Program-made: the position numbers and the translations under genes
Virus record (IMG/VR): IMGVR_UViG_3300024520_000049
Coordinates: 1 to 64,000 of that record
Length of the DNA stretch: 64,000 nt
Source of the DNA: a virus
Direction: 5' to 3' (one strand)
The notes under the pieces: model-generated
What the model was told of the DNA's origin: nothing
Database searches by the model: none
The model's input: the letters and a program-made list of their open reading frames with translations, nothing else
Shown here: positions 1-55,497 of the stretch, one piece after another
Position numbering within the stretch: position 1 is the stretch's first letter
Layout of the letters: every line of letters starts with the position of its first letter

Positions 1-97
1 GAAGTGCCAAGCGCGCCGAAAGACACTGCCTGCTGAAAAGACGGTTAATAGCTAAATAGCCTGTAGCAAGGCTGTTACAGATTACGGAGAATATGTC

Positions 98-688
98 ATG
101 CCAGACATGGAAAAATTTGCGGAGGGTTTCGTAGCACACTGCGAGTCCCACGGGCTGGACCCGGAAAAAACTTTGATGAAGATGGCTCAAATGACCTCGG
201 ACGCTGATCAGAACTCCACATGGGAGGGGGTGAAAGAGTTCGGAAGAAACATCCCCATGTTCGGCGGGCTGATGGGCGGCGGTGAGGGGGCGATGAGTCG
301 TGACAGGAGTCAGCCTATTGGGCACCAGATCGGCCAAGGTATTGGCGGATTCCTGCGTGGGGCCGCCCAGCCCTTCCAGAATGCCGGCAACTTCTTCTCG
401 AACATAGCTGAAGGCACCGGCCTCGGTGGCGGGCAGCAGATGCGCGATTTGCAGTCCACACAGAACTCGCGACTGCAGGAGCTCTTGGAGCAATCTAAGC
501 AGCCGATGGGCGGTAGTGGCCCTGGCCCGCATCGTGGCGGTTATCAGTTTGATCGCACTCGCCCACACAGCCAAGGCTATTGGCAAGGGCCTCCGCCAAT
601 GCGAAACCCCTGGCTCTATAACCCTTCTCGCCCGTGGCTCAGTGGCGGCGGTACTCTCATGAATCCCTACAGCGGATTCCCAAGCTAA
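98..688 (+). CDS. Small Gly-rich protein with N-terminal KCAEHG-type motif
   Basis: This 196-residue protein has no family I recognise. Residues 7-22 (FAEGFVAHCESHGLDP) are a member of the short motif found in at least eight other proteins of this window. The remainder is rich in Gly, Pro, Gln and Asn, with a C-terminal Pro/Tyr/Trp-rich tail (residues about 150-196), and looks disordered. The start ATG follows the purine-rich stretch ACGGAGAA. It ends 15 nt before the portal gene, so the two are probably co-transcribed. By position and motif I infer a virion-associated, perhaps internal head, protein; no enzymatic residues are visible. Confidence 0.75.
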   Translation: MPDMEKFAEGFVAHCESHGLDPEKTLMKMAQMTSDADQNSTWEGVKEFGRNIPMFGGLMGGGEGAMSRDRSQPIGHQIGQGIGGFLRGAAQPFQNAGNFFSNIAEGTGLGGGQQMRDLQSTQNSRLQELLEQSKQPMGGSGPGPHRGGYQFDRTRPHSQGYWQGPPPMRNPWLYNPSRPWLSGGGTLMNPYSGFPS

Positions 689-703
689 GAAATGAGGACG
701 TAA

Positions 704-3700
704 ATGCCGTCAAGCACCTCCTTTTATACCCTGGGCACGCACTCGAATATCCCGTTTCGTGACCAGACAAACTTCGGCCTGAATGGGGCGTACAAGTTCC
801 CGAACCCGTTTTATGACGTGGCGTCGGAGTTTATCCCCACAGACATCAACAACATCTTTGAGTGGTGCACACCTGCAGGGACGCTTATCGAACTGGACGA
901 GTACGGGAACACCTGCCCAGTTGAAGACGTGCAGGTTGGCGATAAAGTGCTTACCCGCTCAGGAAAGCGCTGCCGTGTGGATAAAACCAGCCACCGCGCC
1001 GTGGATGAGCAGCTAATCAACATCCAAGCTGCGGGCTTGCGTACGTTTTCTTTACGCATTACAAAAGAACACCCAGTGTTGATATGGCGCCCGTTCAGCA
1101 CGTTGAAAGCATCGCGGCTCCACTTCGAGAAAGCTGCGGACGAGATGAAATATATTCCGGCAGGAGAAGTGCAGGAAGGGGATTGGATGTTTACACCAGA
1201 CCCAGCACCGCACATCTCGCGAGCAGCCTCGGATTTCCCCTACTCCCCGTTTATTTGTGGTCTGTACGTGTCCGAAGGCTGCCTCTTAAAGCGGTATCTG
1301 GCTGATGGAGACAAGCACGCTCGTGGCGTCCAATTCACTTTAGGCAGTCATGAGGGTGCGCTGATCAGCCGGTTGAAGAGCGAGTTGCAGGAGTACACAG
1401 GGATGACCCCAACAGTGGACGTAACGCCCGCACGCCCGGATGTGGCGCAAGTGCGCGTCTTCGACCCAGATCTAGCGAACTATCTATCAAGCAAGTTCGG
1501 CGAGTATTCAGGGCAGAAACGACTACCTGATCAATTATTTAAGTTGCCAGTGGAGAGTCAGCGAGAATTCTTCGCTGCCTGGGTTGACGGAGATGGCCAT
1601 TATGCGACTGGGTCGGATAGTCTGGAGGTGCGCCAAGCACCACTGTACTCGTGCTCATCTCAGCTTATCTACCAGGGGATGCGTCTTGCGATCTCGGCAG
1701 GCTTAAACCCCACAATGGGGCACAGGCGTAGAGCTGGGAATAGCGGGGGATTTAATACTCAGACAAGTAATGAGTACCGACTCACGTTCAACAAGGCGGA
1801 CATGCATCACCTTGTCAAGTATGCGACGAACGAGCTCGTGGCCGGAGAAGGTGGGGGATGTGGGAACGGGGTTATCTTCCACGAATTGGGTATCTTCCGC
1901 AAGGTATATAAGGCAGAGCACGAAGGGTTTTCTGGGCTGGTGTACAACATTCGGGTAGAAGACGAGCACAATTACATCGCGAATGGAGTCACCGTCCACA
2001 ACTGTGAATACATCTACACAATGATGGGTACTTGGCGTTCGGCCTCTCGCCGGGTTGTTCGCTATTTCCTCACAGACATAATTCTGAAGGGGGAATCCGA
2101 CGAGGAGCGTGAAGACTACCAGGACTTCCTGGACGACGATATGCACCTGCTCACGGAGCTGGCCCAGATTGGCGATGACTTCATGACTTATGGCAATGTG
2201 TTCGTCAGCCTGTACTTCCCCTTCGACCGCTTCCTGATTTGCCCGAAGTGCCACTTCCAGTACCACACAGATGCTATCCGCTACCGCTATAATGCGTCAG
2301 CGCTGCAGTTTGTGGCTACCTGCAAGAAGTGTAAGCATCACGGGGCCTTCCATCATGAAGATCGCCGCAGCCCGAACCGTAAGGGTGTGAAGATCATCCG
2401 TTGGAACCCCAAGCAGATCCGTATGCGCGTGCACCCGGTGTCCGGCCGCACGGTCTACTACTGGGAGATCCCGATCGAGTTCTCAAAGAAGATCCGTGAG
2501 GGTAAGCACTTCTACATTAAAGACACGCCATGGAAGATCCTTGAGTGCTTTAAGAGTGGTAATCAATCCTCGATGCCGCTCTTCGAGTTCAGCGAGGACG
2601 CCATCTACCACTTCAAGGAGACGACACTGGCCGGCCTGCCGATTGTGGGCTGGGGCATACCGCCGATTCTCCCCAACTTTAAGTTGGCGTACTACATACA
2701 GGTGCTGCGACGCTTCGACGAGGCGATCGCGCATGACTACATTGTCCCGTTCCGCATCCTCTACCCGGACTTCGGCCCGAGCCAGCACCAAGACCCTTTG
2801 GCGCATTTCAGCAACAGCCAGTTCGTGTCGCAAATGCAGTCCTTTGTACAAGCACACCGGCTGGATCCGTCTCTGGTACAGATTGCACCTTTCAAGGTTG
2901 GTTACGAGATGGTGGGCGGTGAAGGCAATCAGCTGACACCGAAGGATCAGATCGCCCAGGCTTTGGACGAACTGCTCAACAGCCTTGGCTACCCCGCTGA
3001 ACTCTACAAAGGTTCGTTGAGTATCCAGGCCTTCCCAGTGGCGCTTCGCCTGTTTGAGAAGACCTGGGGCTCAATGACTGACGGGTACAACGATCTTATC
3101 CGCTGGATGCTCACCAAGATCAGCCGCCACTTTATGTGGGGCGATATCACTGGTAAGCTACGCAGCGTAACACTGGCCGACGATTTGGAACGCAAGGCGT
3201 TGAGCCTGCAGGGCGCTGCGGGGATGGACATCTCCAAAGGCACAGCCTACCAGCCATTCGGCATCGATTATATGGAAGAGCAGCGTCGCGTTGTAGAAGA
3301 GCAGCAGGCGATTCAGGAGCTGCAGCAGGAAGCCATGGCCGAGTCCCAAGCCCAGCAAGGTCTGGAAGGCGGGGCATCAGGCGGCGGAGCGCCTGGCGGC
3401 GTCGGCGCTACGCCGGGTGATGTCAATGAGCAGGCCAAGCAACTCGCGCAACAACTGCTGTTCAACACGCCGGAGACACTGCGTCGCGGTGAGCTGATCA
3501 AGATCAAGCACAGTAACCCCACACTCCACGCGCTGGTTCTCCAGGAAATGGACACAATGCGCCAGGAGATGAGCCGTCAAGGTGGGGCCATGATGATGGA
3601 CCAGATGAAAGGGCAAGGTGCGCCCGCCGGCGGGATGGAGGCACAAGCATCTGCAGAGGAGTCTCCGAGTCCGTTGATGGTAGGTTGGCTCATCGCTGAC

Positions 3701-12200: not shown

Positions 12201-15200
12201 GGATGCTTATGTCATCAGTGAGTCCGCAGCGCAGAAGCTGGCCTCGGAGCGGCTGTACGGCTTCGACAAGGAATCACGGAATAACGTGGAGATCGGTCTC
12301 AACAAATTTACGAGCGCGTTCCCCAAGGCGTATACCACCAAGCAGCTGGAGAGTATGGGCAAGGATGGCGTTGTCCGCGAGGGCTCGGTCGTCCACAAAG
12401 GGGACCCCATTATTTTAGCTGTCGGACCTAAGCTGCTGTCGTCTGAGGACGCAGAGCTCGGTAAATTGCACAAGGCTCTCCGCAACTCGTTCCGCAATGA
12501 AGCGACAGAGTGGGAGTATAGCACGCCCGGCGTGGTGACGGATGTCGGCCAGACCACAACTGGAGTCAAGGTCAACATCAAGAGCCAGACCCCGTCCAAG
12601 GTGGGGGACAAGCTCTCCAACCTGCAGGCGTCCAAAGGAATCATCGGCAAGATCATCGCGGATGAAGAGATGCCCAAGGACACGGAGTCAGGGGAACCCT
12701 ATGAGATGCTGCTGAACCCGATGGTGGTTCTTTCCCGCGTGGCCCCCAATCAGCTTGTAGAGCTGCAGCTGGCCAAGATCGCCAAGAAGACTGGCAAACC
12801 TTACAAGCTACCCAGCACACCACCCGCCGGCATGACTTGGACGCAGTTTGGTGCTGAGGAGCTGAAGAAGCACGGGCTGGAGGAAAGCCGCGGCATTTAC
12901 GATCCTGAGCTCGGGCGCGAGATCAAAGGCTTGGGTGAGGGCTACATGTATATGAGCGCGTTCCACCACTTGGCGGAGAAGAAACTGTCCGGCCGGGACG
13001 TCGGCGGCTACACGGCTGATCACCAGCCTGGCCGCGGATCGAAGACTGGCGCGAAGAAGATGTGCTTCCCTGCGCACCAAAAGGTTATGACGTTAGATGG
13101 CGAGAAAAAAATCGGCCATATTGTGGAGAAGCGCCGAAATGAGCTCGTCTGGGCTCCTGATGATCAAGGCACCTGGGGTTATTATAAAATTACGAACTGG
13201 TGGACCAGGAGAGGGCTCCCATCCGAGCTGCTGAATATTCGGGTTGCCAATGTGTACTCCTCTACTAAAACCTCTTATTACCGTAATCTGCATCCGACAC
13301 GTAATCACGAGATATATCGTTATGACGGGGCGAAGGTCAGAGCAGACGCCCTGAAAGTGGGTGATCAGCTGGCTTCCTGGGGCTACACCATATCCAAGGA
13401 TCAACGATCACTTCTTGTTGGGTCTATGCTTGGAGATGCGGCTATTTGCGACTTAGGAGGTTCCGCTTCTTTCTACAGCGACATGCATTCGGACAAACAA
13501 AGGTATTACCTGGAGTGGAAGGACTCGATCCTAAACCCACTGACACCCACTGGCGTGAGAACCTCTATGCGGGACGAACTAACGACAGGCCCCGATGGGG
13601 GTTTTGCCAAAACAGGTAAGCGTAAACGTGTAGCAACACTGACGATACATCGGCACGATGTAGCCAAGTGGCTCGAGAATCTGTTTTATCGGGACAAGGT
13701 TAAGGTGGTGACCGACGAGGCCTTGTCGGTTCTGACCCCCATCGGGTTAGTGGCGTGGTTTTTGGACGATGGGTGCGTACACAAACGCGCCACACGCAAA
13801 GACGGCACTGCGGCTCTCACGGGCACAATTGCTACCCACGGGTTCAAGCCGGAGTGCCGAGCGAAACTTGCGGAGTTTTTAAGCTCGACTCTCGCGGCTA
13901 AAGTGACAGTAACCAAGGCGGGCGCGCTCTGCTTGTCAGCTTCAGCCTGTACTGCCCTATCGGGTATGACAGCGTGGTATGTTCCGTTTACTGCAATACC
14001 CAAAAGCAAGATTTATCTAAGAGCGTATGCGAAAGCTCAGCAGGAGTCTGGCGATGTTAAGCTCATTACACCCTGTGTTGGTGGACTTGGCACAGTTCCT
14101 GCCGAGGTTATCAGCATTAGTCCATACAGACCCTACAAAGGGGGCGTTGAGGACGAGATAAACCTGTACGATCTAGAGGTGGAGGGTGTCCATCGGTACT
14201 GCGCTTCAAACCTTGTGGTGTCCAATAGTTCGATGGACGTTAATGCGCTGCTGGCCCACGGCGCCCCGGAGGTGCTCAAGGACTCTCACCTGATCCGCGG
14301 AACCAAGAACGAGGACTTTTGGAATGCCCTGCGCATGGGCCGACCACTGCCTGAACCTGGCGTACCCTTTGTGTACGAGAAGTTTATGAACACCATGAAG
14401 GCCGGCGGTATCAATATTAAGAAGAAGGGAGACATCCTGGAGATCATGCCGTTGACCACTAAGGACGTCGCTTCGGTAAGCTCCGGCGCGGTAAATAGCG
14501 CGCGTACAATCAACAGCCGCACACTGGACCCAATCAAGGGCGGACTTTTTGATCAGACGCTCACGGGCGGCATGCAGGGGAAGAAGTGGACCCATGTCGA
14601 TCTGGCCGAACCCATCGTCAACCCTGTAATGGAGGAGCCCGTGCGCCGGCTGCTGGGTCTGAAGGCCCGCGAGTTGTCTGACGTGATCGCCGGCCGCCAT
14701 GAAGTCGGCGGCAGCACAGGAGGCAAGGGTCTGCGCGCCGCGCTCGCCGCACTGGACGTGGACAAGGAGATTGAGAAGTACCGCCTCCAGATTAACGCTT
14801 CGCGCGGAGCAAAGCGGGACAACGCGGTGAAGGCGCTTCGGTACCTGGTAGCGGCCAAGAAGCAGGACATCCATCCAGAGGATTGGATCATTGACAAAGT
14901 TCCAGTTATACCGCCTATCTTCCGTCCGATCTCACAGATAGGCGACGTTCTGCGCGCTTCGGATATGAATGAGCTTTACCGCGATTTGATTGAGACCAAC
15001 AACGGGATCAAGACACTGCGTAAGGATCTACCCGGGTCGGCACTCGCTGATGAGCGGCTGCAGTTGTACAAAGCAGTCACCGCCGCCGTAGGTCTTGGTG
15101 AGCCGATCACCCCCGAGGGCGTGTCTAAACGATGGAAAGGTGCGATCCGCCAAGTGATCGGCACAAGCCCAAAGACTGGGCTGTTTCAGTCCAAGGTGTT

Positions 15201-15822
15201 GTCGAAGACCGTGGATGTTGTCGGCCGTGGTGTTGTCGCACCAGATCCGTCGCTGGACATGGATTCTGTGGGTATTCCCGAAGATAAGGCCTGGGTCCTG
15301 TATCGGCCGTTCGTTACCAGGAAGCTTGTGCGCCGCGGCTTCCCGCCGCATCGCGCGGCGGAGATGGTGGAGAATCGTACCAAGGAAGCTGAGGATATGC
15401 TGCTCCAGGAGATGAAGGATCGGCCAGTGCTGCTGGACCGTGCCCCGACCTGGCACAAGTTCAACCTTCTGGCGTTTACTCCGCATATTGTGAAGGAGGA
15501 CGTCATTCGCGTGTCTCCGCTGATTGTTGGCGGGTTCAATATGGACTTCGACGGGGACACTGCGAATTTCCACGTCCCTGTGTCAGACAAAGCGGTGAAG
15601 CAGGCGAAAGAGCGCATGATGCCCAGCCGCAACCTGTTCCGCACGACAGACCTGCAAAGCCCGCAGCATACTCCTGGCAAGGAGATGGTGATGGGGCTGT
15701 ATCAGCTTACCCGCAAGCCCACAGGGAAACCGCCTGTGGTGTTCAAGAACAAGCGCGAGGCCAAAGAGGCCTACCGCAAAGGTATGATCGGACCCAATGA
15801 TCCGATCATAATACAGGGATAA
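9226..15822 (+). CDS. RNA polymerase beta/beta'-N fusion precursor with two inteins
   Basis: Catalytic subunit of a DNA-directed multisubunit RNA polymerase. The 2198-residue precursor would be 1464 residues after removing inteins at 407-752 and 1280-1667. Beta landmarks are: NRGNEYTIVNQARLKPGVY (matches bacterial NGTERVIVSQLHRSPGVF); the RDVNPGQAGFIDLISGPE region; FEDAYVISE (991-999); GDKLSNLQASKG from 1128, with both active-site lysines; and LNPMVVLSRVAPNQL. Beta' landmarks after the second intein are: PPIFRPISQIGDVLRASDMN; RAPTWH (2072-2077); and the magnesium-binding NMDFDGD, with DFDGD at 2107-2111. The protein ends shortly after SPQHTPGKEMVMGLYQLTRK. The N-terminal beta' zinc ribbon is missing. 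The rest of beta' is encoded at 20183. The Shine-Dalgarno is weak. Confidence 0.96.
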   Translation: MPLPPPKPALPPGVRAFDDVETTRDLIYSGTLSALQRRFPVSDGTHRLELSNVRYSGPQTYSLKQQKKALMSNRSLRTPVTGTWKLTDETTGKVLDEREDIVMHVPYYTQRGTIINRGNEYTIVNQARLKPGVYTRTKLSGEHEAQVNIKPGTGKNFRMWMEPSTGIFRVNVGQANIPAYPFLQMMGVTDEQMQTAWGPEVYDANRNKIDKQSTNKLYKRFSGYQYQDGLDDSEKIKYLKEAVAKFELDPEVVARTMGLENTAAVTPALLMRTTQKLLNISRGEEEEDDREAPQFANVLSIEDFMKERIDKDAGRTAKQLLFKSRRNKTLKSVPRGALNPYFQSLLLGSGLATPLEETNPFQILDQQNRIVKLGEGGITSAEAVTDDARDVNPGQAGFIDLISGPECLAHPEEWELFTDRGWKCPKDINEQSRLATLRADNTLTFNVPEKIVRTQYTGEIFTASSKFLAYAVTPNHRNWTRPYPDQASKWRFERADKSHDKCRYFQTGHEPYSGDPEISSVRISKDLSYPLNTWAAFLGWYLAEGSTKGHTSVSGVNKRCSVTISKVATYRPQEAAEIGELLDEMGEDYKYDDRAFNINNTVLAEYLHQFGKAGNKYIPEEALQWPQQARENLLRTLVTGDGRFIPGTREAFRKKNFVSTSQKLVDGVERIAISLGYPVYRGIEKDDREHVKSTNYRVGLHAYKHRTLVPRPWEDKTPYKVENYSGDVFCVVVPTGRFLVRYKGCTSFWTGNSEKIGIDVRAAYKTFKGEDQQLYAEFLNPKGDVEYLKPADVSDATVAFPGEDLSRPNNAVYALKGGKMQRTKAKQVDYQIPSYAHMYGPTNNMAPMPTGFMPSRAFYAAKYWSQYLPMVKGEAPLVQTQMPDSDLTFSEHYGRKVGTLSAKGGGVVTKVTNDSITITNEDGKKQVVEMVQNFPFNRLTAISYFPTVKSGDVVNPGDMLAHSNFSDKKTGAMNMGVNLKTAVVPYKGFSFEDAYVISESAAQKLASERLYGFDKESRNNVEIGLNKFTSAFPKAYTTKQLESMGKDGVVREGSVVHKGDPIILAVGPKLLSSEDAELGKLHKALRNSFRNEATEWEYSTPGVVTDVGQTTTGVKVNIKSQTPSKVGDKLSNLQASKGIIGKIIADEEMPKDTESGEPYEMLLNPMVVLSRVAPNQLVELQLAKIAKKTGKPYKLPSTPPAGMTWTQFGAEELKKHGLEESRGIYDPELGREIKGLGEGYMYMSAFHHLAEKKLSGRDVGGYTADHQPGRGSKTGAKKMCFPAHQKVMTLDGEKKIGHIVEKRRNELVWAPDDQGTWGYYKITNWWTRRGLPSELLNIRVANVYSSTKTSYYRNLHPTRNHEIYRYDGAKVRADALKVGDQLASWGYTISKDQRSLLVGSMLGDAAICDLGGSASFYSDMHSDKQRYYLEWKDSILNPLTPTGVRTSMRDELTTGPDGGFAKTGKRKRVATLTIHRHDVAKWLENLFYRDKVKVVTDEALSVLTPIGLVAWFLDDGCVHKRATRKDGTAALTGTIATHGFKPECRAKLAEFLSSTLAAKVTVTKAGALCLSASACTALSGMTAWYVPFTAIPKSKIYLRAYAKAQQESGDVKLITPCVGGLGTVPAEVISISPYRPYKGGVEDEINLYDLEVEGVHRYCASNLVVSNSSMDVNALLAHGAPEVLKDSHLIRGTKNEDFWNALRMGRPLPEPGVPFVYEKFMNTMKAGGINIKKKGDILEIMPLTTKDVASVSSGAVNSARTINSRTLDPIKGGLFDQTLTGGMQGKKWTHVDLAEPIVNPVMEEPVRRLLGLKARELSDVIAGRHEVGGSTGGKGLRAALAALDVDKEIEKYRLQINASRGAKRDNAVKALRYLVAAKKQDIHPEDWIIDKVPVIPPIFRPISQIGDVLRASDMNELYRDLIETNNGIKTLRKDLPGSALADERLQLYKAVTAAVGLGEPITPEGVSKRWKGAIRQVIGTSPKTGLFQSKVLSKTVDVVGRGVVAPDPSLDMDSVGIPEDKAWVLYRPFVTRKLVRRGFPPHRAAEMVENRTKEAEDMLLQEMKDRPVLLDRAPTWHKFNLLAFTPHIVKEDVIRVSPLIVGGFNMDFDGDTANFHVPVSDKAVKQAKERMMPSRNLFRTTDLQSPQHTPGKEMVMGLYQLTRKPTGKPPVVFKNKREAKEAYRKGMIGPNDPIIIQG
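10444..11481 (+). mobile_element. Intein 1 of RNAP (beta conserved region), LAGLIDADG type
   Basis: 346 residues, from Cys407 (CLAHPEEWELFTDRG) to Asn752, followed by Ser as +1. Endonuclease motifs are FLGWYLAEG (537-545) and VTGDG (638-642). The C-terminal splice region is NYSGDVFCVVVPTGRFLVRY followed by FWTGN/S. The residue before the terminal Asn is Gly rather than the usual His. It interrupts the segment equivalent to bacterial ETPEGPNIGLI, among the most conserved parts of beta; the joined exteins read ISGPE-SEKIGID. Presence of Cys1, terminal Asn and Ser+1 supports splicing competence. Confidence 0.92.
13063..14226 (+). mobile_element. Intein 2 of RNAP (beta C-terminal motif), LAGLIDADG type
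   Basis: 388 residues, from Cys1280 (CFPAHQKVMTLDGEKKIG) to Asn1667, followed by Ser. Block B-like LHPTRNHEIYRY, endonuclease motifs LLVGSMLGDA (1396-1405) and VAWFLDDG (1509-1516), then block F NLYDLEVEGVHRYCASN and end VVSN/S. It sits in the segment equivalent to the bacterial beta C-terminal GGKAQFGGQRFGEMEVWAL, so excision joins GRGSKTGAKKM to SSMDVNALLAHGA. The penultimate residue is Ser instead of His, as in the mini-intein at 20786. Confidence 0.92.
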
Positions 15823-20182: not shown

Positions 20183-22492
20183 GTGCCACTTCAAACTACA
20201 ATGGGCCAATTACTGGTAAACGAAGCGCTGCCGCCGCAGTACCAGGATCATAACCGCCAACTTATCGGGGGCGCGCTTGATGACCTTCTCGGCCAGATTG
20301 GGCGCGAGAACCCAGAGCTCTACCGCGACATCTCCCACAAACTCATGGAGCTGGGGCGGCACACCGCCTACGAGCAAGGCACCACCATCAGCCTCTCTGA
20401 CCTGCAAGCTCCGTCTGAACTTCGCAAGGAAGTCTTCGCACATGTGGATAAGCAGGAAGCAGTTATAGACAAGTCAAACCTCTCCCCGGCCGAAAAGGCC
20501 CAAGCCCGTGCGGAGGTTTATGGTCAAGCGCAGAAGCTACTCACCGATGAGACATATGCACATGCGCAGAAATCTGGCAATCCCCTGGCGCTTCAGGTAC
20601 TCTCCAAAGCGCGTGGTAACCCGACGCAGCTTGCGGCCATGCTCTCTACCCCTGGCACGTTCCAGGACACCAAAGGGAACACGATCCCCATCTTTGTCCG
20701 CCGGAGCTATGCTGAAGGGCTGACGCCAGCCGAGTATTATGCCGCAACCTTCGGTGCGCGGCGTGGAGTTGTCAGCACAAAATTCTGCCTCGCAGAGGGT
20801 TCCGAAGTTTTGATGGCGGATTATTCGGTAAAATGTATCGAGGATGTGAATGCTGGTGATACGGTTTTTACGGTCGACGACAACATGAAAATGGTGCCCA
20901 CAAAAGTGGTAGAGACGTTCAACAATGGGCTGCGGGAGTGTTGGGATTTTAAGTTCAGACAGGGACGATCACGCAGCGAGTTTGTGTCTATTAGGGCAAC
21001 AGAAGACCATAAAGCGGTTATGTCCAGGAAAAAGGGTAAGAACCGTGTTAGCGAGAAAGAACCCCTTAGCAAGGCCCACCGTGGCCGCCGGGCGATACAC
21101 CTGGCCGCCGGGGAGCACTCGACCACTGGCAATAGGTTCCACTCCAAAACGTACCTGGGAGCCGTGCATACTTACGATCTGGAAGTGGCACACGAAAGTC
21201 ATAACTTCGTTTTAGCGAACATGGCAGTAGTGTCAAATTCTACACGCGACGCTGGTGATTTCGGCAAGCAGCTCAATGTTGCCGCAGCAGACCTGATTGT
21301 CACCGAGGCCGACTGCGGGACTGTTAACGGTATTCCTGTCGGGATCGATGATAACGACACAGTGGGCGCTATCCTGGCACGCGGGTCTGGCGGGTTTAAG
21401 CTGGGAGCCCCTGTAGGCCCCAAGATGCTGAAGTCATTGAAGCAGAACAAGGTGGACAAGATTTTAGTCCGCTCACCAATCACCTGCCAAGCCCAAGGCG
21501 GTGTGTGTAAGCACTGTGTCGGCTTGCGGGAGAACGGTAAGTTCCCCGAACTCAGGTCCGCTGTGGGGATCCAAGCATCCTCGGCCCTGGCTGAGCGCAT
21601 TGCCCAAGGGAGCTTGAATGTAAAACACTCTGGCGGCCAATCCGCCAAGGGTGAAGCCACCTACGCGGGTTTCAACATCATCAATCAAATCGGCCAGATA
21701 CCCTCAGCTTTCCGACACAAAGCAATCTTATCGGAGCAGGACGGTTTGGTCACCAAGATTGAGCCTGCGCCACAGGGCGGCACCAACGTGTACATCGGCG
21801 AGGAGCTGCACTACGTGGAGCCGGAGCAGGCAGTGACTGTTAAGGAGGGGGACGACCTCGAAGCTGGTGATCAGCTGGCCACGGGTATTGTCAACCCGGC
21901 AGAAGTCGTGCGCCATAAAGGTATTGGCGAAGGTCGACGATATTTCGCGGAACGGTTGACCCAGGCGTTCAAGGACAGTAAGTTAAAGGCCAACAGGCGT
22001 AACACTGAATTGATAGCACGAGCGGTGATAGACCATGTGGATGTCGAAGAACCTTCCGGTCTGGGTAATTTTTTGCCAGGTGATGTGGCCTCGTACAATA
22101 ATCTGGCATACAGCTATAAGCCCCGAGCCGACGCAGGTGCGTTTCGGCCGACTAAGGCCGTGGGTCAGTATTTGGAGCAGCCCGCACTGCACTACACCAT
22201 TGGGACTCGAGTAACAAAGAAGATTGCTAAAGAGCTTGAAGGATTTGGAGTAAATACGGTTACCGCACACAGCCAGCAGCCTGGGTTCACCCCTCGGATG
22301 ATACGCCTGCGCGCGGTACCTCATTACGGGAAGGATTGGATGGCCAAGTTGCACGGCAGCTATTTACAGACTAACTTGCTTAAGGACGTGCAAGAGGGTT
22401 CCCAATCTAATATTCATGGAACACACCCGGTACCTGGGATCGCGTACGGCGCGGAATTCGGCGAGAGCAAGAAAAATAAGGTAACATTCTGA
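20183..22492 (+). CDS. RNA polymerase beta' C-terminal subunit precursor with mini-intein
   Basis: 769-residue precursor, 618 after splicing (intein 202-352). It starts at GTG after AAGGAG. The N-terminus (MGQLLVNEALPPQYQDHNR) matches the bacterial beta' VGRALLSEILP region, and the bridge-helix/trigger-loop zone is RRSYAEGLTPAEYYAATFGA. The intein splits RRGVVSTKF from STRDAGDFGKQLNVAAADL, where cellular enzymes have the trigger loop. VTEADCGT (373-380) and CQAQGGVCKHC supply the second beta' zinc site. VGIQASSALAERIAQGSLN matches VGVIAAQSIGEPGTQLTMR. Together with the product of 9226 it gives a complete beta/beta' core. No alpha or omega gene is visible. Confidence 0.95.
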   Translation: MPLQTTMGQLLVNEALPPQYQDHNRQLIGGALDDLLGQIGRENPELYRDISHKLMELGRHTAYEQGTTISLSDLQAPSELRKEVFAHVDKQEAVIDKSNLSPAEKAQARAEVYGQAQKLLTDETYAHAQKSGNPLALQVLSKARGNPTQLAAMLSTPGTFQDTKGNTIPIFVRRSYAEGLTPAEYYAATFGARRGVVSTKFCLAEGSEVLMADYSVKCIEDVNAGDTVFTVDDNMKMVPTKVVETFNNGLRECWDFKFRQGRSRSEFVSIRATEDHKAVMSRKKGKNRVSEKEPLSKAHRGRRAIHLAAGEHSTTGNRFHSKTYLGAVHTYDLEVAHESHNFVLANMAVVSNSTRDAGDFGKQLNVAAADLIVTEADCGTVNGIPVGIDDNDTVGAILARGSGGFKLGAPVGPKMLKSLKQNKVDKILVRSPITCQAQGGVCKHCVGLRENGKFPELRSAVGIQASSALAERIAQGSLNVKHSGGQSAKGEATYAGFNIINQIGQIPSAFRHKAILSEQDGLVTKIEPAPQGGTNVYIGEELHYVEPEQAVTVKEGDDLEAGDQLATGIVNPAEVVRHKGIGEGRRYFAERLTQAFKDSKLKANRRNTELIARAVIDHVDVEEPSGLGNFLPGDVASYNNLAYSYKPRADAGAFRPTKAVGQYLEQPALHYTIGTRVTKKIAKELEGFGVNTVTAHSQQPGFTPRMIRLRAVPHYGKDWMAKLHGSYLQTNLLKDVQEGSQSNIHGTHPVPGIAYGAEFGESKKNKVTF
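20786..21238 (+). other. Mini-intein in the beta' trigger loop
   Basis: 151 residues, from Cys202 (CLAEGSEVLMADYSVKCIED) to Asn352, followed by Ser. Splicing block B is RATEDHKAV, block F is HTYDLEVAHESHNFVLANM, and the end is VVSN/S. The length leaves no room for a homing endonuclease, and no LAGLIDADG motif is present, so it can no longer home by itself. The penultimate residue is Ser, not His. Splicing is needed to rebuild the trigger loop and hence polymerase activity. Confidence 0.92.
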
Positions 22493-31776: not shown

Positions 31777-33276
31777 ATGCCAACTGTAGATCAAATTCTT
31801 AACGACACTCGCGCGTTCGTGAAAGAGAAGCAGGCCAGCTTCCGGAAAGGCGCGGCAGAAGAAGCTCTGTCCAACCCCGGCTCGATTCCTGGCTCTGTCC
31901 ATGATTCGAACGTCGACGCTTCTATGCAAAACTCTCATCCCGAAACCCAGCAGGAAATTCCCGCTGGGTCCAAAGTCCGCTCTGGCGCTACTGACGGTGA
32001 GGACCTCGAGTCAGGTCACGCCACCAATGCCCTTGAGCCGATTCCGGGTGTAACTCAAGAACCCCTCGAATCTGCTGATGCGCTTGGTGGGAATGTGGGC
32101 TCCAGTACAGTGGGCGATCAGGCTCACGACGGTACCGCGGGCGCGCTTGGTGATGAAAGCCGCTCCACTGAGGGTACTCCAGCCACCCATAAACATCCCG
32201 CTGCCAAGCATGCGAATGATCTGTTGTCTATGATTAGTCAGCACAATGCGCAGCAGAAAGCAGCCGCTGCCCCGGCACCCGGCACCGCGCCGGCGCCAAC
32301 AAAAACTGCTGCTCCCGCCGCCCCAGCACCTGCTGCACCCACCCCAGCGCCGACAAAAGCGGCTGCTTGTGAGTGTGGCAAGGACGACTGCACGGCGTGC
32401 AACAAAGTCGCTGGCGACACAAAGCACGCTGGTGAAATTGAACTCACCCAGGATGTCCTGTCCAAGATTGCATCTGTGATCCTCAGCACCGAAGAAGGTT
32501 GGGCCTTTGCCGAAGCGCAAATGTCGAAAGCCGCTGGTGCCGACGCAGCCCGCGAGACTATTCAGTTTCTCGAGCAGCAGGCGCTGGAGGCTGAAAAGCA
32601 GGCCGCGTATGCTCAAGGGCAGACAGACGCCGACAACCTAATCAAAGCTGCTGTGTATGAAGCAGGCCGCGCTGACGCAGCGGCTGCCGCAAGCCCAGTT
32701 GCCCCACAGGCCCAGGCGGGCTCTGTTGTCAGCCAGCTCAAAGCTGCTGCTGCTCGTTACCGCCAGCAGACTCCTGCAACTAATGTTAAGGGTCTTCAAG
32801 ATCTTGGACGCGAAGTTGCAGAACAGGCTGTGAAACAGGCGCAGGATCTGGCCGCCGCCCTCGGTGGCGGTGCCCCGGCCCCTGAGGTGATGCCTCCCGA
32901 AGCTGGCGGCGAAGATCTCGACGCCGCAGCTGCGGAAATGGCTGCCCCTCCAATGGAAGGTGGTGGTGAAGAAGACATCAGCCCTGAAGAACTGGAACAG
33001 GCTCTCTCAATGATGGCCCAAGAAGGTACCATCGGCCCAGAGGACGTCCAGGAGATCTTGGCGTATCTGGAACAAGCTGGCGGTGCTCCCGAAATGGGTG
33101 GTGCCGAAATGGGTGGTGCCGAAATGGGTGCTCCAGCCCCTCCGCCCCCAGCACCCGCACCTGCCGCAGAAGGCGGGGGCGACGAAGCCGCAGAAGATGA
33201 ATCTGGGATGGAAGCCTACGCAAGCGCTAACCCGCTTGTCCAAGCTATCCGCCGGGTCCAAGCTAAGAACAAGTAA
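31777..33276 (+). CDS. Scaffold-like acidic Ala/Pro-rich head protein
   Basis: 499 residues, strongly acidic and low complexity: Ser/Gly/Asp-rich first 130 residues, a Pro/Ala-rich region (about 160-195), a Cys/His patch (CECGKDDCTACNKV, about 197-212) and a helical middle rich in Ala and Glu. The acidic C-terminal part has EMGGA repeats and a Pro-rich run. Composition and position between protease and capsid fit a procapsid scaffold. The Cys/His patch is unusual for a scaffold. AAGGAG ribosome site. Alternative: a multi-purpose internal protein. Confidence 0.72.
   Translation: MPTVDQILNDTRAFVKEKQASFRKGAAEEALSNPGSIPGSVHDSNVDASMQNSHPETQQEIPAGSKVRSGATDGEDLESGHATNALEPIPGVTQEPLESADALGGNVGSSTVGDQAHDGTAGALGDESRSTEGTPATHKHPAAKHANDLLSMISQHNAQQKAAAAPAPGTAPAPTKTAAPAAPAPAAPTPAPTKAAACECGKDDCTACNKVAGDTKHAGEIELTQDVLSKIASVILSTEEGWAFAEAQMSKAAGADAARETIQFLEQQALEAEKQAAYAQGQTDADNLIKAAVYEAGRADAAAAASPVAPQAQAGSVVSQLKAAAARYRQQTPATNVKGLQDLGREVAEQAVKQAQDLAAALGGGAPAPEVMPPEAGGEDLDAAAAEMAAPPMEGGGEEDISPEELEQALSMMAQEGTIGPEDVQEILAYLEQAGGAPEMGGAEMGGAEMGAPAPPPPAPAPAAEGGGDEAAEDESGMEAYASANPLVQAIRRVQAKNK
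33091..33131 (+). repeat. 15-nt direct repeat, almost three copies
   Basis: The unit gaaatgggtggtgcc occurs at 33091-33105 and 33106-33120, with a third partial copy from 33121. It encodes EMGGA repeated in the C-terminal part of the scaffold-like protein. Likely a slippage-type expansion; the repeat number may vary between relatives. Confidence 0.9.
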
Positions 33277-37809: not shown

Positions 37810-40800
37810 ATGGCATATGTACGGCCACAAGTACAGGTCTTCCAGGAGTTCCAGACGGCTCCGCAGGAGGTGGTACAAAACCTCAACGCGTTTATTTTCG
37901 GGCCCAATTACCAGCTTTTCCGCTTCTCGGAAGACGCTGAGAAGGACTTGATTGGCGTTGGAGAATACGATAAAGATGCTGGCAACAGCGTTTCGTACCC
38001 TAATCAGCCATCCAACACGACAGTCGATGTCGATTATGTGAAGGTTTTCGCAGAGGACGTGCTCCTCCGCTACATCACTTTTGCAGAGGATGCTGACAAC
38101 CCACTTATGGCCGTAAGCTCAGTCGAGCGTAACCGCCTTCGCGCTGCACCCAAAGTGGGCGCTGTAGATGAGGTTACGACCGGCCCGACCATCGACGAAG
38201 CTGGTGGCTACCACACCGGCCGCATCGATTTGCCTGAGTCTTACTACCTCACCCCAAAAGCCACGTTCGACCTGGGCACCGTTGATGGTGTTTATGAGTA
38301 CGTGACGACTGAAGGTGAAACTGGCGAGATCGACATTCCGGACGACGCAACTACCGCAAGTGTTATTGTTCAAGGTCCCGACGGGATCACGCTGGACTTC
38401 GACACGGCTGGTACTGTTCAGTCGCCGATCGTCGCGACGTTCGAGGACGATTTGGGCGCGAGCTTCACTTTGGAAGCCACACTCAGCCGTCGCGCAGCGC
38501 AGATTGACTTTGCGATTCTCGCTGCAGCTCTCCGTATCAATGTGGATGCAGCCGCTGGTGCCCTTGCAGGTACCTACGACTCCGTCGCACACATCCTGAC
38601 GCTGGCGTTCGCAGTCACGGACTCTCTGGCGGCTATCCGTACAGAGCTGCTCTCTGGACTTGCAGCCGGCCAGGCTGACTTCCTGATCGAGTTCACTGTG
38701 AGCGAGATTACAGGCGGTGCAGGTATCGGAGATGCGGTAACAGCAGTCGACCAGGACGCGGCCAGTGTTGCAACTGTGGCTGACATTGATGTCTTCCCAG
38801 TGGCGCATCGCATTCCTATTACTGAGAACACCATCGTGTTTCAGACAGCCAACGGGTTCGCCCGCCACCCGGGACTCCTCCGGGACGTTCTGGTCGGTGA
38901 CCGCATTCGCTGGACTGTTACCTCTGCGTTGACAACCAACACAGAAGTGAAGATGGCCAAAGTGGTCGGCTTTGAAGCTGATCTCACTAACCCGACACTG
39001 GGTTTGGCAGCCCCTAAAGGCGGCAACAAAGCTTCTGCAGCAGGTGACGATCTGTCCTCTGGTGCGGCGCTCATCACAGCCGGCGGCGATAACCAGCGCG
39101 ATATGGATGGTGCAGCTACTGCAGCGTTTAGCTTGGGTGTTGCGGACTACGGATTGGGTGATCTGGCTCGCGGCGTCCTGGACTTCGCGGTTGCAATCAC
39201 TATCAGCAAGACCGGCCTGGCCGGAGTTGCTGAAGCGACAGTTGAGTACGCCAGCGGGATCTACCGCCGTACCTCTGTACCGATCGAAGCCACAGGCACT
39301 GAAGATGGTCAAATCCACATTGGCAACAACGTTTACCTCAACTTCGAAGTTGGCGGCGGTGATGCAGATGCGGAGTTCCAGCTTGGTGACGTTTACACTG
39401 CCGCAGTGGGTACGCCCGTTACAGCAGTAACAAATCAGGTTGTCTCCGGTGATTACACTGGACAGGGTGACACCACCTATGTGGTGGATGTTCTCCGTGG
39501 CGGGGTCTTCGACCGCGTGACAATTGACACCGACGGTCTGACACAGGCATCTGGCGCGACTATCACTTCAGATCTGGCGGCTTGGCTCGGCGGTGATGTT
39601 GATGACGAGTACGTGCTCGAGTGTGCTGTTGCTGGGTCAATCACCACGGCACAGTGGACTGCGAAGAGCGTGAACGGCGATATCCAAACAGGCATCTCGT
39701 TCGCCGGCCTGGGCATCGGCAACAAACGCACGATCGGCAGCAAGGGCCTTGAGGTCTATTTGACACATGGCGGAACACCGGCGTTTGCTGTAGGTGATTA
39801 CTTCGTCGTCTCGGTTAAAGCCGCGCGTCCACAAGTCCGCGTCACAGACTCTGCTGGCCTCGACCAGGAGATCTCCTCTATCGCCAACGATGGCGACGCT
39901 ATCACCCTCGGGCTGAACGGCGGCTCCATCACCTTCCCAGCAAACTCCAATACCCTTGGCGGTGTTGCAGCGGCTGGTGGTCTGGTACTGGGAGACAGCT
40001 GGACGGTTGAGGCCAAAGCATCTGCTGAGGGTCCCATCCAGACATTGGTCCTCTCAGACGACGTGTTTGATGAAGTCACTCCTGGCCAAGAGGCTAACGG
40101 CGACTCAAACCACGAACCTGATCTGTTCGAGATCGACTTGTTCCTGATACAAAACAGCGCAGAAATCCCCGAAGAGCAGCATGACCCGGCCTTCGCGCCA
40201 GGCACGTTCAACTGGGAAGCTGACGAGAACGGCGTTGAGATCAACGACGGTATCACGCTGCAGGACGCGAGCTGGGTTGACGGATTCGGTGCACAGCCTT
40301 ATCTGGAAATGTGGGAAGGCGACCTTCTGGTCGAATACCGCGCGCTGTTGCAAGAGTACACGAACGGGATCTTCGGTATCACCGATATCTCTGAAGTGGC
40401 GCTGCAGCTGGGCACGATCCATCCTGACAACCCGCTGGCACAAGGTGTGTATAAGGCGATGGAGAACTCTGGAAGTGTCACAGTATACTTCATGGCGACT
40501 CCTTCCGACGACCTCCTCGGTTTCAGCACAGTGCTTAACCGCGCCAGCTTGACTGACATCGTTTATGCCTTTGCTCCAGTTACCCGGGATGAAGCCATCC
40601 TGGCTCTGGTTGAAGGTCATGTCGAAAACATGTCCAATGAAGTTCAGAAGAAATGGCGTATCGCGTTCTTTGGTACCGAGACTCCTTCGACCGGTGTTGT
40701 GGCAAACAGCACGAACCATCCCACCAATGCGGATTGGATGGCAACGATCAAGGACGACCCGACCACCAGCGGAACACAATACACCCGTGTGGAGCTCACA

Positions 40801-41661
40801 GAAGATGCAGATCTGCTGTCGGGCCTGAAAGCGGGCGATACCGTCCACTTCCGGTTCTCCACAGATGCCTGGGGCAACCAGACACATCTGACCGGAGAAG
40901 TTGCTTCCGTTGAAACCGACAAGGTATTCTACCTCAAGGATGACGTTGGCTTCGAAATCGATCCGGCAGAGAAGATCGAACTCTACCACCCGCTCTCGAC
41001 ACAGGAGATTGCAGACGCTACCGCAGCCCGCTCCGCGGCTTTCGGCGACCGACGCATCTACCACGTGTTCCCTGACAGCCTAGGTGCCTTTGGTACGACC
41101 CTTACTGCGGAATACGGCGCTTGCGCCATCGCCGGCCTCACAGCCAGTGTACTCCCGCAGCAGGGCCTGACCAACATTGAGGTTAACGGCTTCGACGATA
41201 TTCCGGCAGTGTACAGTGTGTTCAACGCTGACCAGCTGGATACGATCGCCGGGGGTGGAACGCTCATCATCATGCAGGAGACCCTTGGAGGCAATATCTT
41301 TGTCCGCCATCAGATCTCCACCGCATACGGTGAAAATGATCTGAACCAGAGTGAGTTGAGCTTGGTTAAAAACCTTGACTCAATCAGCTACATCTACGCG
41401 AATGCGCTGAGACCCTTCATCGGAGTCTTCAACGTAACGCCGGATGTGATCGACCAGATCTCTCTGGAGGTCCGGAACATCCTGGCATCCCTGGGCTCAC
41501 TTACTGACGCCCTGGGAACTGTCAGTCCGCAGATCATCCTGGAAGGAAGTGAGCTGTCGAATATCCAACAGCACCCAGTGCTGAAGGACCGCTTACTGAT
41601 CACCGTAAACTTGAACCTGCCAGTGCCCCTCAATGTCATTGAGATGCACTTGGTCGTTTAA
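37810..41661 (+). CDS. Contractile tail sheath protein, unusually long
   Basis: 1283 residues, against roughly 400-700 in most phages. The N-terminus (MAYVRPQVQVFQEF) and the last 300 residues (GGTLIIMQETLGGNIFVRHQ; NALRPFIGVFNVTPDVIDQI; PLNVIEMHLVV) are characteristic of sheath proteins. Between about 130 and 800 lie several beta-rich inserted domains, rich in Thr/Ala/Asp, such as GDTTYVVDVLRGGVFDRVTI and GDYFVVSVKAARP. These probably project from the sheath surface. Strong ribosome site AGAAGGAG. Its product contracts around the tube at 41680 during infection. Confidence 0.9.
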   Translation: MAYVRPQVQVFQEFQTAPQEVVQNLNAFIFGPNYQLFRFSEDAEKDLIGVGEYDKDAGNSVSYPNQPSNTTVDVDYVKVFAEDVLLRYITFAEDADNPLMAVSSVERNRLRAAPKVGAVDEVTTGPTIDEAGGYHTGRIDLPESYYLTPKATFDLGTVDGVYEYVTTEGETGEIDIPDDATTASVIVQGPDGITLDFDTAGTVQSPIVATFEDDLGASFTLEATLSRRAAQIDFAILAAALRINVDAAAGALAGTYDSVAHILTLAFAVTDSLAAIRTELLSGLAAGQADFLIEFTVSEITGGAGIGDAVTAVDQDAASVATVADIDVFPVAHRIPITENTIVFQTANGFARHPGLLRDVLVGDRIRWTVTSALTTNTEVKMAKVVGFEADLTNPTLGLAAPKGGNKASAAGDDLSSGAALITAGGDNQRDMDGAATAAFSLGVADYGLGDLARGVLDFAVAITISKTGLAGVAEATVEYASGIYRRTSVPIEATGTEDGQIHIGNNVYLNFEVGGGDADAEFQLGDVYTAAVGTPVTAVTNQVVSGDYTGQGDTTYVVDVLRGGVFDRVTIDTDGLTQASGATITSDLAAWLGGDVDDEYVLECAVAGSITTAQWTAKSVNGDIQTGISFAGLGIGNKRTIGSKGLEVYLTHGGTPAFAVGDYFVVSVKAARPQVRVTDSAGLDQEISSIANDGDAITLGLNGGSITFPANSNTLGGVAAAGGLVLGDSWTVEAKASAEGPIQTLVLSDDVFDEVTPGQEANGDSNHEPDLFEIDLFLIQNSAEIPEEQHDPAFAPGTFNWEADENGVEINDGITLQDASWVDGFGAQPYLEMWEGDLLVEYRALLQEYTNGIFGITDISEVALQLGTIHPDNPLAQGVYKAMENSGSVTVYFMATPSDDLLGFSTVLNRASLTDIVYAFAPVTRDEAILALVEGHVENMSNEVQKKWRIAFFGTETPSTGVVANSTNHPTNADWMATIKDDPTTSGTQYTRVELTEDADLLSGLKAGDTVHFRFSTDAWGNQTHLTGEVASVETDKVFYLKDDVGFEIDPAEKIELYHPLSTQEIADATAARSAAFGDRRIYHVFPDSLGAFGTTLTAEYGACAIAGLTASVLPQQGLTNIEVNGFDDIPAVYSVFNADQLDTIAGGGTLIIMQETLGGNIFVRHQISTAYGENDLNQSELSLVKNLDSISYIYANALRPFIGVFNVTPDVIDQISLEVRNILASLGSLTDALGTVSPQIILEGSELSNIQQHPVLKDRLLITVNLNLPVPLNVIEMHLVV

Positions 41662-41679: not shown

Positions 41680-42195
41680 ATGGCTGATATCTTTGGATAC
41701 CAACGGTCGCCGAAGCCCGCAGGGGTGTTCTCTACGGAGAACTCCAAGCTCATCTTCGCCTCAGGCTTTGCGCCTGCGGACGATACGGGCGCCCTGGGTG
41801 CAAAAGGCTACCTCGTGCAGAATTGGAACATTCAGTACCAACAGCAGGTACAGGAAGTGTTTGAGCTTGGCTCGAATGCCTTGTACTGGGTCAAGGGCCG
41901 CCCGCAAGGGACAGGCTCCATCCAGCGTGTTGTTGGGCCGCGTGATGCCTCCAGACCTGGCACGCTATTCCCTGCGGAAGCTTACGACATCTGTGAAGGT
42001 GGTGTACGCTTTGAGCTCAAGGTCAAGTCAGGCAACTGCGGGGGCATTGGCTCCTTGTCGTTTGACACCTTCAGCGAAGTGGGTATCAACATGGATGGCT
42101 GCGTTATTACCTCTATCGGGTTCAACGCTGCCGTACAGGATACTCGTGTCATGGAGAACATCGCATGGAGGTTCGCATTCCTGGAAGTCTCCTAA
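41680..42195 (+). CDS. Tail tube protein
   Basis: 171 residues, beta-rich (GYLVQNWNIQYQQQVQEVFE; LGSNALYWVKGRPQGTGSIQ), matching the size and style of contractile-tail tube proteins of the gp19 type. It lies directly after the sheath gene with an AAAAGGAG ribosome site, and is followed by a strong terminator. Sheath-then-tube order is conserved in myoviruses. Confidence 0.87.
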   Translation: MADIFGYQRSPKPAGVFSTENSKLIFASGFAPADDTGALGAKGYLVQNWNIQYQQQVQEVFELGSNALYWVKGRPQGTGSIQRVVGPRDASRPGTLFPAEAYDICEGGVRFELKVKSGNCGGIGSLSFDTFSEVGINMDGCVITSIGFNAAVQDTRVMENIAWRFAFLEVS

Positions 42196-53850: not shown

Positions 53851-55497
53851 ATGGCCATTGAACGTACACTCGCGGATGTCGATCAGACAGTGTTCGCTGA
53901 GTCCGAGGCAAAGCTCATCACCCTGCTGCTGGCCGAGAGCCCTGAGTTGGACCTCCGCCAAGGGACAGCATTGCGCGATCTGATCATACGACCCGCTGCA
54001 CAATTTCACGCCCTGAACGGGCAGCTCAACGAGGACCTCCGCAACTCGCAGTCTGTAAAGCTGATTGCCGAAAACCCGGAGGTGGCCGACGAGGACACGC
54101 TCGATAACATCCTGGCCAACATGGGTGTAACCCGCCAAGCAGGCGGATTCGCGACAGGGTTGGTGATGGTGGTCGTCAACGTGCAGAAAAACTACACACT
54201 CCCTGTAGGGTACAGTTTTGTAGACGCTGCCGGCACTACTTTCGCGACAACTCAGGACTTCAGCATCCGCGCATTTGACGAGCCGATCCCGCCGAATGAG
54301 CTTGCTCTGTTCCCGTTTACCTCCGCGGATCTGGCCGGTAAGTACTATTTTCTGTTACCAGTTCAAGCCGCTATAGTTGGTACAACTGGTAACATCGCCC
54401 AGGGCACTGCACTCGGGATCACCGGCCAGGCCTTCACAGGGATTGAGTCAGCTTCTGCATACGCGGCCTTCTCTGGCGGTAGTGCTGAGGAGACCATTGA
54501 AGAAGTCTTGGCGCGCCTACCAGCCACCCTGTCGCTTAAAGCTTTTGAGTCCTCGGTGGCGATCTCCACGCGGATACAGGAGACGCTGACCAATGTGGTC
54601 GCAGTATCCTCTGTTGGCTTCGGCGATGATGCGCAGTTGCGTGATAAGCACAATGTTCTGGGCGTGGCTGTAGGGTCTAGGGTCGATGTGTACTTGCGCA
54701 CGGGCCGGGAGCCGCAGATCACTATCTTGGAGAAAACCGCTACCAAAGTATCTGATGGGGTCTACACCTTCTCAATCGCAGCTGCTGAAGCCCCGGGGTT
54801 TTATAAGATTCGTGGGATTAGCAGTTTAGAGGATGTTGAATCCGCGGACCTACCCATTATAGGGTCGTTCCCATTCACCGAAGAGAGATCCTCGTCAGGT
54901 ACGTCCGGAAGCTTCCACGATTTTGATGTGAACAACTTGGTAGTTGAGACAGCCTACACGGTGTTCCAAACAAGCACGGTGACTGTGACCAACGTCGCGC
55001 CGTCTATCATTGATGGCGCTGCTGTGTATCAGGACACCATCAATCTGAAGGTCGAGCTGTACGCGCCAACCAATCTAGTCGCGGCCCAGGCTTTTGTGGA
55101 TAATGACGCCCTTCGCAACCTGGAGGGGGATCACCTCATTCGCGGCGCGATCCCCTGCTTCACCTCGATCAGTGCGAACGTGTTCCATAAGAAGGAGGTC
55201 GAGATAGATCTCACAGAGGTTAACCAGGCGCTGGCTGATTTCGTGAATTCGAAGGACTTTGGCGAGACCGTGACTGCCTCGCAAATCTCCGCGATTTTGC
55301 ATCAGTTCGACATTGTACGTGTAAATGAGTTACAGCTTAGTGGGAGTATTCGCGCCGCCGACGGCCAAGAGCTCACGCTCACCGGCGCAGACATCGATCC
55401 AAATTTGGTGCGAACCCCAGAGCTGCTGGTTACCACTGACACTGTTATCTTCATGCAGGACACTCGCGATATCTTTATTATTACCAGAGAGTTATGA
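53851..55497 (+). CDS. Baseplate J-like (gp6-type) protein
   Basis: 548 residues. N-terminal LLLAESPELDLRQGTALRDL (about 28-47) is the hallmark of baseplate J proteins, followed by beta-rich domain and VGTTGNIAQGTALGI (about 175-190), and helical/beta parts later. J/gp6 proteins form the wedge ring of the baseplate. It ends overlapping the next gene by ATGA. Confidence 0.85.
   Translation: MAIERTLADVDQTVFAESEAKLITLLLAESPELDLRQGTALRDLIIRPAAQFHALNGQLNEDLRNSQSVKLIAENPEVADEDTLDNILANMGVTRQAGGFATGLVMVVVNVQKNYTLPVGYSFVDAAGTTFATTQDFSIRAFDEPIPPNELALFPFTSADLAGKYYFLLPVQAAIVGTTGNIAQGTALGITGQAFTGIESASAYAAFSGGSAEETIEEVLARLPATLSLKAFESSVAISTRIQETLTNVVAVSSVGFGDDAQLRDKHNVLGVAVGSRVDVYLRTGREPQITILEKTATKVSDGVYTFSIAAAEAPGFYKIRGISSLEDVESADLPIIGSFPFTEERSSSGTSGSFHDFDVNNLVVETAYTVFQTSTVTVTNVAPSIIDGAAVYQDTINLKVELYAPTNLVAAQAFVDNDALRNLEGDHLIRGAIPCFTSISANVFHKKEVEIDLTEVNQALADFVNSKDFGETVTASQISAILHQFDIVRVNELQLSGSIRAADGQELTLTGADIDPNLVRTPELLVTTDTVIFMQDTRDIFIITREL

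Follow-up and report, generated by a model that had tools for sequence, protein, structure and literature searches.

Extra domains are a known feature of phage tail sheaths, and in a survey of 112 of these proteins they lie away from the tube (accessible text of PMC9230969). In the type 3 multi-domain sheaths of that survey a conserved core is formed from the N- and C-terminal halves, with several mostly beta domains between them. The same layout is predicted for the protein considered here, the product of an open reading frame (ORF) at 37810-41661 (+ strand) in a 64,000-nucleotide stretch of viral DNA (the window; positions 1 to 64,000 of IMG/VR record IMGVR_UViG_3300024520_000049). The survey table, in the portion available, includes sheaths of 1283 (phage LacPavin_0818_WC45), 1248, 1086 and 1032 amino acids (aa), the first two from metagenomic phages and with five or more domains. 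The window protein has the same length as the LacPavin entry (1283 aa), which may be coincidence. Type 3 is defined by at least three domains, and the models of the window sheath contain the core, modules termed M2a, U1, U2 and U3, and a further domain at residues 959-1055. Enlarged multi-domain sheaths are already known, and the window protein belongs to that kind. Possible novelties are its series of nested repeats and the likeness of a repeat to the FlgL/FlgK D2 fold. The accessible text of PMC9230969 mostly terms the added domains of type 3 sheaths Ig-like, whereas the window sheath has a FlgL/FlgK D2-like repeat, nesting, and a second insertion site at 959-1055; for the listed giants, the contrast is with their published description.

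The sheath of phage T4 provides a second comparison. In gp18, domain I lies inside domain II, which lies inside domain III, so that the insertion falls between the N- and C-terminal parts of the core, as in the window protein (accessible text of PMC3004832). However, gp18 has 659 residues against 1283, and the same text mentions only a beta hairpin (454-470), with no repeats or second inserted domain. Similarly enlarged sheaths are found by Foldseek in BFVD, namely A0A6J5LIZ5 of an uncultured Caudovirales phage (1117 aa, E 6.7e-28, probability 1.00) and H6WFT7 of cyanophage S-TIM5 (1137 aa, E 5.7e-4, probability 0.69); both are matches of the whole model. The four matching records of isolated phages are Salmonella phage Arash (gp236, 706 aa) and Vibrio phages D181 (701 aa), D148 and D69. 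They align with residues 838-1283 or 843-1283 at 27-28% identity and have about 250-270 residues before the matched part, where the window protein has about 840.

The overall reading, considered quite probable, is an ordinary sheath core that carries an outward, modular stack of inserted domains at one site and a second small insert. The ORF is open over all 1283 codons and is the sole self-match in the 190,498-bp viral contig (IMG/VR) that contains it. PHROG 279 ('tail sheath') matches residues 1064-1216 (E 3e-12) and is also matched by 22 of 32 aligned sheath members (E<=0.05). Pfam PF04984 scores 16.7 bits at 1075-1170, below the curated cut-off of 31.4; it scores 21.7 in a search of the whole record, with no other match within the 190,498 bp, and is matched by 5 of the 32 members (E<=0.05). 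That cut-off is one model's score and no defining trait of sheaths, and the assignment rests on fold and PHROG. An AlphaFold2 model (model 1), made for residues 1-1200 with 31 relatives, has a mean pLDDT of 73.5 and a pTM of 0.57, with block means of 80-96 at residues 21-90 and 831-950. Among solved structures its top match by VIA-align is the phage 812 sheath (9eui_F, Z 29.1, 2.2 A over 245 residues), in a superposition that spans model range 23..1200, and the 50 rows of the list all come from contractile tails, bacteriocins or injection systems. Because of the PHROG 279 match and the superposition of the modelled core on sheaths of phage 812, other phages, bacteriocins and injection systems, the product is identified, on its predicted fold, as a contractile tail sheath protein, and the initial annotation was right to call it an oversized one. 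The long 1283-aa form is probably the working sheath, since a single sheath locus was found per record (8/8 records searched using the window protein) and its own record holds a single PF04984 match.

The modules can be followed along the protein, all on the + strand. Residues 1-111 (37810..38142) contain the N-terminal arm and the first core part; they are 48-58% identical to the sheaths of loci L004-L008, their pLDDT block means are 80-96 (21-90) and 72-85 (91-110), and the phage 812 superposition begins at 23. Module M1 (112-341; 38143..38832) occurs in three of the 32 aligned members (window, L004, L008). It is followed by M2a (342-445; 38833..39144), with long beta strands at 365-402, and by repeat unit U1 (446-543; 39145..39438). 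The first piece of a split U2 (544-569; 39439..39516), joined to the equivalent of 674-765 in members without U3, precedes repeat unit U3 (570-673; 39517..39828), which lies inside U2 and is present in 4/32 aligned members. The second piece of U2 (674-765; 39829..40104) is delimited by alignment and profiles, and the return segment to the core (766-837; 40105..40320) by alignment and model. The C-terminal half consists of a first core block (838-958; 40321..40683; 54-60% identity to L004, L005 and L008), the second inserted beta domain (959-1055; 40684..40974), further core (1056-1200; 40975..41409), assigned by the PHROG 279/PF04984 match and superposition, and the C-terminal arm (1201-1283; 41410..41658), assigned by alignment. 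The segment DTTYVVDVLRGG, quoted in the initial annotation as an example of the middle region, is present at residues 554-565.

U1, U2 and U3 are three related beta repeats of about 100 residues. The hhalign probabilities between unit profiles are 95.5% for U1-U3, 94.4% for U1-U2 and 94.5% for U2-U3; with plain window-coordinate cuts they are 90.2% and 92.6%, and 53.1% when U3 is compared with just the second piece of U2. U2 is unbroken in members without U3; in the window it is split, and U3 lies between an initial hairpin (544-569) and the rest of the unit (674-765). U3 is thus nested within the related domain U2. A second AlphaFold2 model (model 2), for residues 100-775 with 23 relatives, has a mean pLDDT of 65.4, with block means mostly of 70-94 over U1-U3 and 29-66 over M1. 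Separate inserted beta domains at about 342-770 are supported by the structure models, the internal repeats and the block-wise presence or absence in relatives. The earlier proposal that the whole middle is made of inserted beta domains is supported for that stretch and less secure for 112-341, where block means are about 29-66 in both models and residues ~228-300 are predicted, in these low-confidence models, to be alpha/beta and not pure beta. The first part of M1 resembles assorted beta sandwiches with Z <5, again on a low-confidence model.

That the protein has no inserted domains at all, and is just an extended form of the standard sheath fold, would fit its size taken alone and the want of a trusted model for M1. 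This is scarcely credible when the models place separate beta domains between core strands, the repeats are internal, blocks are absent as units from relatives, and solved sheaths can be aligned to the core alone. Structure prediction and comparison with relatives, the tests suggested at the outset, both give separate beta domains and not only a longer standard fold.

The family shows how the size of the insert varies. Together with the window, 43 sheath ORFs from the fetched loci gave 36 distinct sequences (701-1537 aa, and one partial, L030, of 565 aa). Alignment A3 holds 32 of the 36 (L002, L003, L014 and L035 excluded); A5 has 24 rows, and A6 has 35 of 53 counted unit sequences. The N- and C-terminal parts are common to relatives and the middle differs, the variable stretch occupying about residues 112-770 (~660 aa), in agreement with the approximately 650 inserted residues first estimated. 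Occupancy in A3 is near full to residue 114, about 3/32 rows at 115-341, mostly 20-31 rows from 342, and about 4/32 at 573-670, after which it recovers; outside the two low stretches it is mostly 20-32 rows, short loops excepted. The equivalent of window residues 100-775 ranges from 115 to 930 aa across aligned full-length members (L030 excluded): 930 residues in L008, 702 in L004, 676 in the window, 442 in L005, 321-382 in members of 916-988 aa, 178-201 in L016, L023, L025, L038 and L040, 117 in L012 and 115 in L013. Judged from these alignments, sheath length in the family changes in whole blocks. The L008 sheath (L008:8001-12611), at 1537 aa, is above every entry in the available part of the PMC9230969 table. 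It has two more private inserts of ~105 and ~110 residues, one located within M1, the other in the U3 region; that these are copies of one domain was rejected (E 0.038, hhalign 1.9%).

When the 460 C-terminal residues are used for a tree, the window groups with L004, L005, L008 and eight members of 741-883 aa (96/99). Branching among the four long members is poorly resolved (supports 67/39 to 76/76), so that M1 or U3 was at most likely gained just once. Size classes cluster on the tree, with 5 changes for 6 groups, the minimum possible. This bears on the idea that the modules are freight, gained and lost with no selected function at an outer loop that tolerates insertions. That one family has anything from 115 to 930 residues at this site, and that L008 has private inserts, would suit such freight, but the idea is made improbable by this clustering, by U2-type sequence in 29 of the 32 members (judged by length), by a 959-1055 domain in all 32, and by a frame that stays open over its full length. 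The Spearman correlation of insert length with record size is 0.46 (p 0.047; 19 contigs >=150 kb, L035 excluded), a value given no weight here, as it ignores relatedness and contigs may be incomplete. The longest direct repeat listed in the DNA of the ORF is 30 nt at 77%, and there is no recent duplication at the DNA level.

Compared with the rest of the protein, the insert has more Gly (12.3 vs 6.7%), Ala (14.1 vs 8.7%), Thr (10.6 vs 7.2%) and, slightly, Asp (9.0 vs 7.5%). The middle had been described as rich in Thr and Asp, which is correct for Thr and marginally so for Asp, although Gly and Ala are enriched more.

The second insertion site lies within the C-terminal half, where the model has a beta domain of ~97 residues at 959-1055; its equivalent has 75-138 residues across the aligned members. 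Both termini are shared with relatives, as expected from the initial annotation, yet this insert means that the C-terminal half is not simply normal. A CusF match at 959-1055 (0.00056, below cut-off) was rejected as a sign of copper binding. The domain is 34-36% identical to L004, L005 and L008, compared with 54-63% for the flanking core blocks (838-958 and 1056-1200), and identity to the same three is 30-51% in M1, M2a, U1, U3 and U2b.

Divergence of this sort is relevant to the suggestion that the modules are adhesins, with sheath rings weakly binding host glycans, flagella or environmental polymers and so raising the chance of infection. Such a role has been put forward for Ig-like sheath domains (PMC9230969, in the text available), the core has diverged more slowly than most outer modules, and module content differs among close relatives. 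However, rapid divergence is expected of any surface loop, and no clear carbohydrate-binding or classical Ig family is found (CBM_6, Big_3_5 and Big_5 each match 1/35 units, E 0.02-0.12), so that adhesion is possible but on the unlikely side. The Ig-like Pfam matches are weak, Big_3_5 with 0.023 and Big_5 with 0.12. The comparison with Ig-like insertions in other phages, drawn before these searches, fits the type 3 description in the accessible text of PMC9230969, but the single module that clearly matches a solved structure resembles FlgL/FlgK D2.

When the insert model is compared with solved structures, the top match is FlgL of Xanthomonas (5ziz_A, Z 9.1, 2.5 A over 86 residues; two crystal forms, 9.1/9.1), followed by FlgK of Burkholderia (4ut1, Z 8.6) and FlgL of Legionella (5yti, Z 8.1). 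The four FlgL/FlgK matches are all over U3 (model 469-571, window ~568-670), and the next row is FliD-FliC 9m6h_A with Z 4.9. The structure tool cautions that top Z values of 7-8 often occur when nothing clearly matches; in this case the four entries, all from one family, are well separated from the other rows. The D2 match concerns one module in one predicted model. The best solved fold for U3, as modelled, is the D2-type beta-sandwich of FlgL/FlgK and no classical Ig domain. That the matched stretch of FlgL is D2 can be seen from E. coli FlgL, which aligns to the Legionella protein at 1-188 and 291-409, skipping D2. In Xanthomonas FlgL, D2 interrupts a helix and is like the D2 of FlgK; in an assembly model it is exposed on the outside as a ring decoration, for which reinforcement between subunits has been proposed (accessible text of PMC6155364). 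D2 is, like the U3 that superposes on it, an insertion, and is modelled in the same text as lying outside a tubular assembly. Sequence support for common descent with the sheath repeats is weak.

For a sequence test of this likeness, 62 FlgL sequences (3 + 59 loci) were aligned and the D2 stretch was compared with the repeat units by hhalign. U1 gave p 1.7e-4 (68 columns, probability 49%), the best of four tries, followed by the pooled units (0.0061), U2 (0.0077) and U3 (0.034). As controls, two other FlgL stretches gave p 0.36-0.90 and reversed D2 0.095-0.37, and the numbers of column shuffles (n=100) matching the score were 0 for U1, 0 for the pooled units, 0 for U2 and 4 for U3. With a smaller FlgL sample, from which 15/30 loci of one set were absent, the p values were 2.7e-4 (U1), 0.0094 (pooled), 0.012 (U2) and 0.12 (U3); shuffles as high numbered 0, 0, 1 and 5 of 40, and for U3 the reversed profile outscored the true one. 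U3 has the best fold match but the poorest sequence match to D2. FlgL was not listed at E<=10 in a HMMER profile search of PDB sequences. The fold is shared, and homology of the repeats and D2 is suggestive but unproven. Were U1-U3 true homologues of D2, one self-nesting beta-sandwich module would have entered two unrelated kinds of tube, the bacterial flagellar junction and the phage contractile sheath, again and again on their outer side, bracing neighbouring subunits from outside in both; this is doubtful at present, and the sequence test did not shift its odds. If the link is real, the module gets a name and a bracing role is indicated. No link of sheath domains to FlgL/FlgK D2 was found in the open-access literature among the matches listed, and PMC6155364 nowhere uses the word 'phage' in its main text. 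FlgL-like frames in one bacterial class fall, among the matches listed, into size steps of ~300, 400, 520-560 and 610-630 residues, which look as if D2-type domains joined FlgL too. Some D2-only matches in the same set fall in other frames of ~630-660 aa, perhaps FlgK.

A scheme for the assembled tail can be proposed. The N-terminal arm with residues ~23-112 and ~838-1283 would act as an ordinary subunit that grips the tube, links neighbours and contracts; the core fold over 23-1200 is predicted, and contraction and arm exchange would follow known sheaths. Where T4 gp18 has domains II and I, the chain would leave the core, build M1, M2a, U1 and U2 with U3 nested in it, and return, the smaller beta domain at 959-1055 leaving the core separately. 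Stack size would have changed as modules, many of them of ~100 residues, were gained, lost or duplicated one inside another. In the assembled tail the modules would project outward as a decoration layer. By analogy, the stack most likely faces outward, since it occupies the place of the gp18 insertion in chain order, the insertion place of known sheaths, and block-wise gain and loss fits such a location. The modules would then contact the outer domains of neighbouring subunits, stiffening or stabilizing the sheath. This bracing role is adopted tentatively, and is ranked first because of the analogy with FlgL D2 and of a proposal for phage 812 quoted in PMC9230969 (in the text available). The family forms a natural series in which the same machine carries 115-930 residues at one outer site, and the role of the decoration can be addressed by comparison.

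Several points weigh against the scheme or parts of it. Outward projection is read from the insertion place, the models being of single subunits; model 1, with the pTM given above, ends before the C-terminal 83 residues. M1 is real as a block by comparison, yet has no trusted fold model. Divergence does not, in these alignments, cleanly part core from decoration: the small U2a piece is 65-69% identical to the long relatives, and divergence alone is no marker of decoration because the C-terminal arm, an ordinary sheath part, is only 39-52% identical. L012 and L013 manage without most of the insert. A very different second sheath gene might escape the eight-record search, and the records may be fragments. 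Reinforcement, adhesion and neutral accretion fit the data alike.

Other searches gave weak matches or none. With the insert alone, tblastn against 50,697 phage records, from which the nearest records of the window may be absent, gave nothing at E<=1, and two more viral scans, one using the insert and one using M1 by itself, gave only already known relatives. The insert profile found the sheath alone in its own genome, and repeat-unit profiles run against six-frame ORFs of the window and loci found sheath ORFs only at E<=0.01. Against PDB sequences the family profile gave nothing at E<=1; the whole protein gave four ribosomal L23/L14 rows (E 0.22-0.95), which were rejected, and the repeat-unit profile gave T4 long tail fibre P37 (0.079) and DDX1 (0.44), which were left unused. 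Scans of the modules with Pfam, PHROGs and NCBIfam yielded a scatter of weak matches, including flagellar FlgE/F/G D1 (1/35 units, 0.0037) and FlgG (1/35, 0.03), neither counted as evidence. For the insert model, Foldseek in BFVD gave one row at E<=0.001 that was not used (probability 0.13), and A0A516LJW7 with probability 0.97 and E 0.086 over 134 columns.

Directly downstream of the sheath is a gene for a probable tail tube protein of 171 aa (41680..42195, + strand), assigned from position and size; Pfam and PHROG gave no match to it. Homologues directly follow the sheath in L004, L005, L006, L007 and L008 (5/10 loci compared). Further downstream, at 53851-55497 (+), there is a gene for a Baseplate_J-like/baseplate wedge protein.

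Elsewhere in the window, a 2198-aa ORF at 9226-15822 (+) has, in a single frame, a beta region of RNA polymerase (Rpb2 domain 6, 902-1271) and a beta-prime region (Rpb1 domains 1-2, within 1874-2131), with a LAGLIDADG endonuclease domain at 1394-1566 between the two. From these matches it looks like a gene fusion for a phage RNA polymerase that holds an intein-like insertion. The ORF at 20183-22492 (+) matches the C-terminal part of beta-prime (Rpb1 domain 5) and has weak Hint/homing-endonuclease matches at ~198-288; it possibly carries another intein. A 1039-aa ORF at 704-3823 (+) matches Intein_splicing below threshold (151-433) and Hint weakly. The 499-aa ORF at 31777-33276 (+) has Ala/Pro-rich tracts and, close to its end, the short tandem repeat GGAEMGGAEMGGAEMG.

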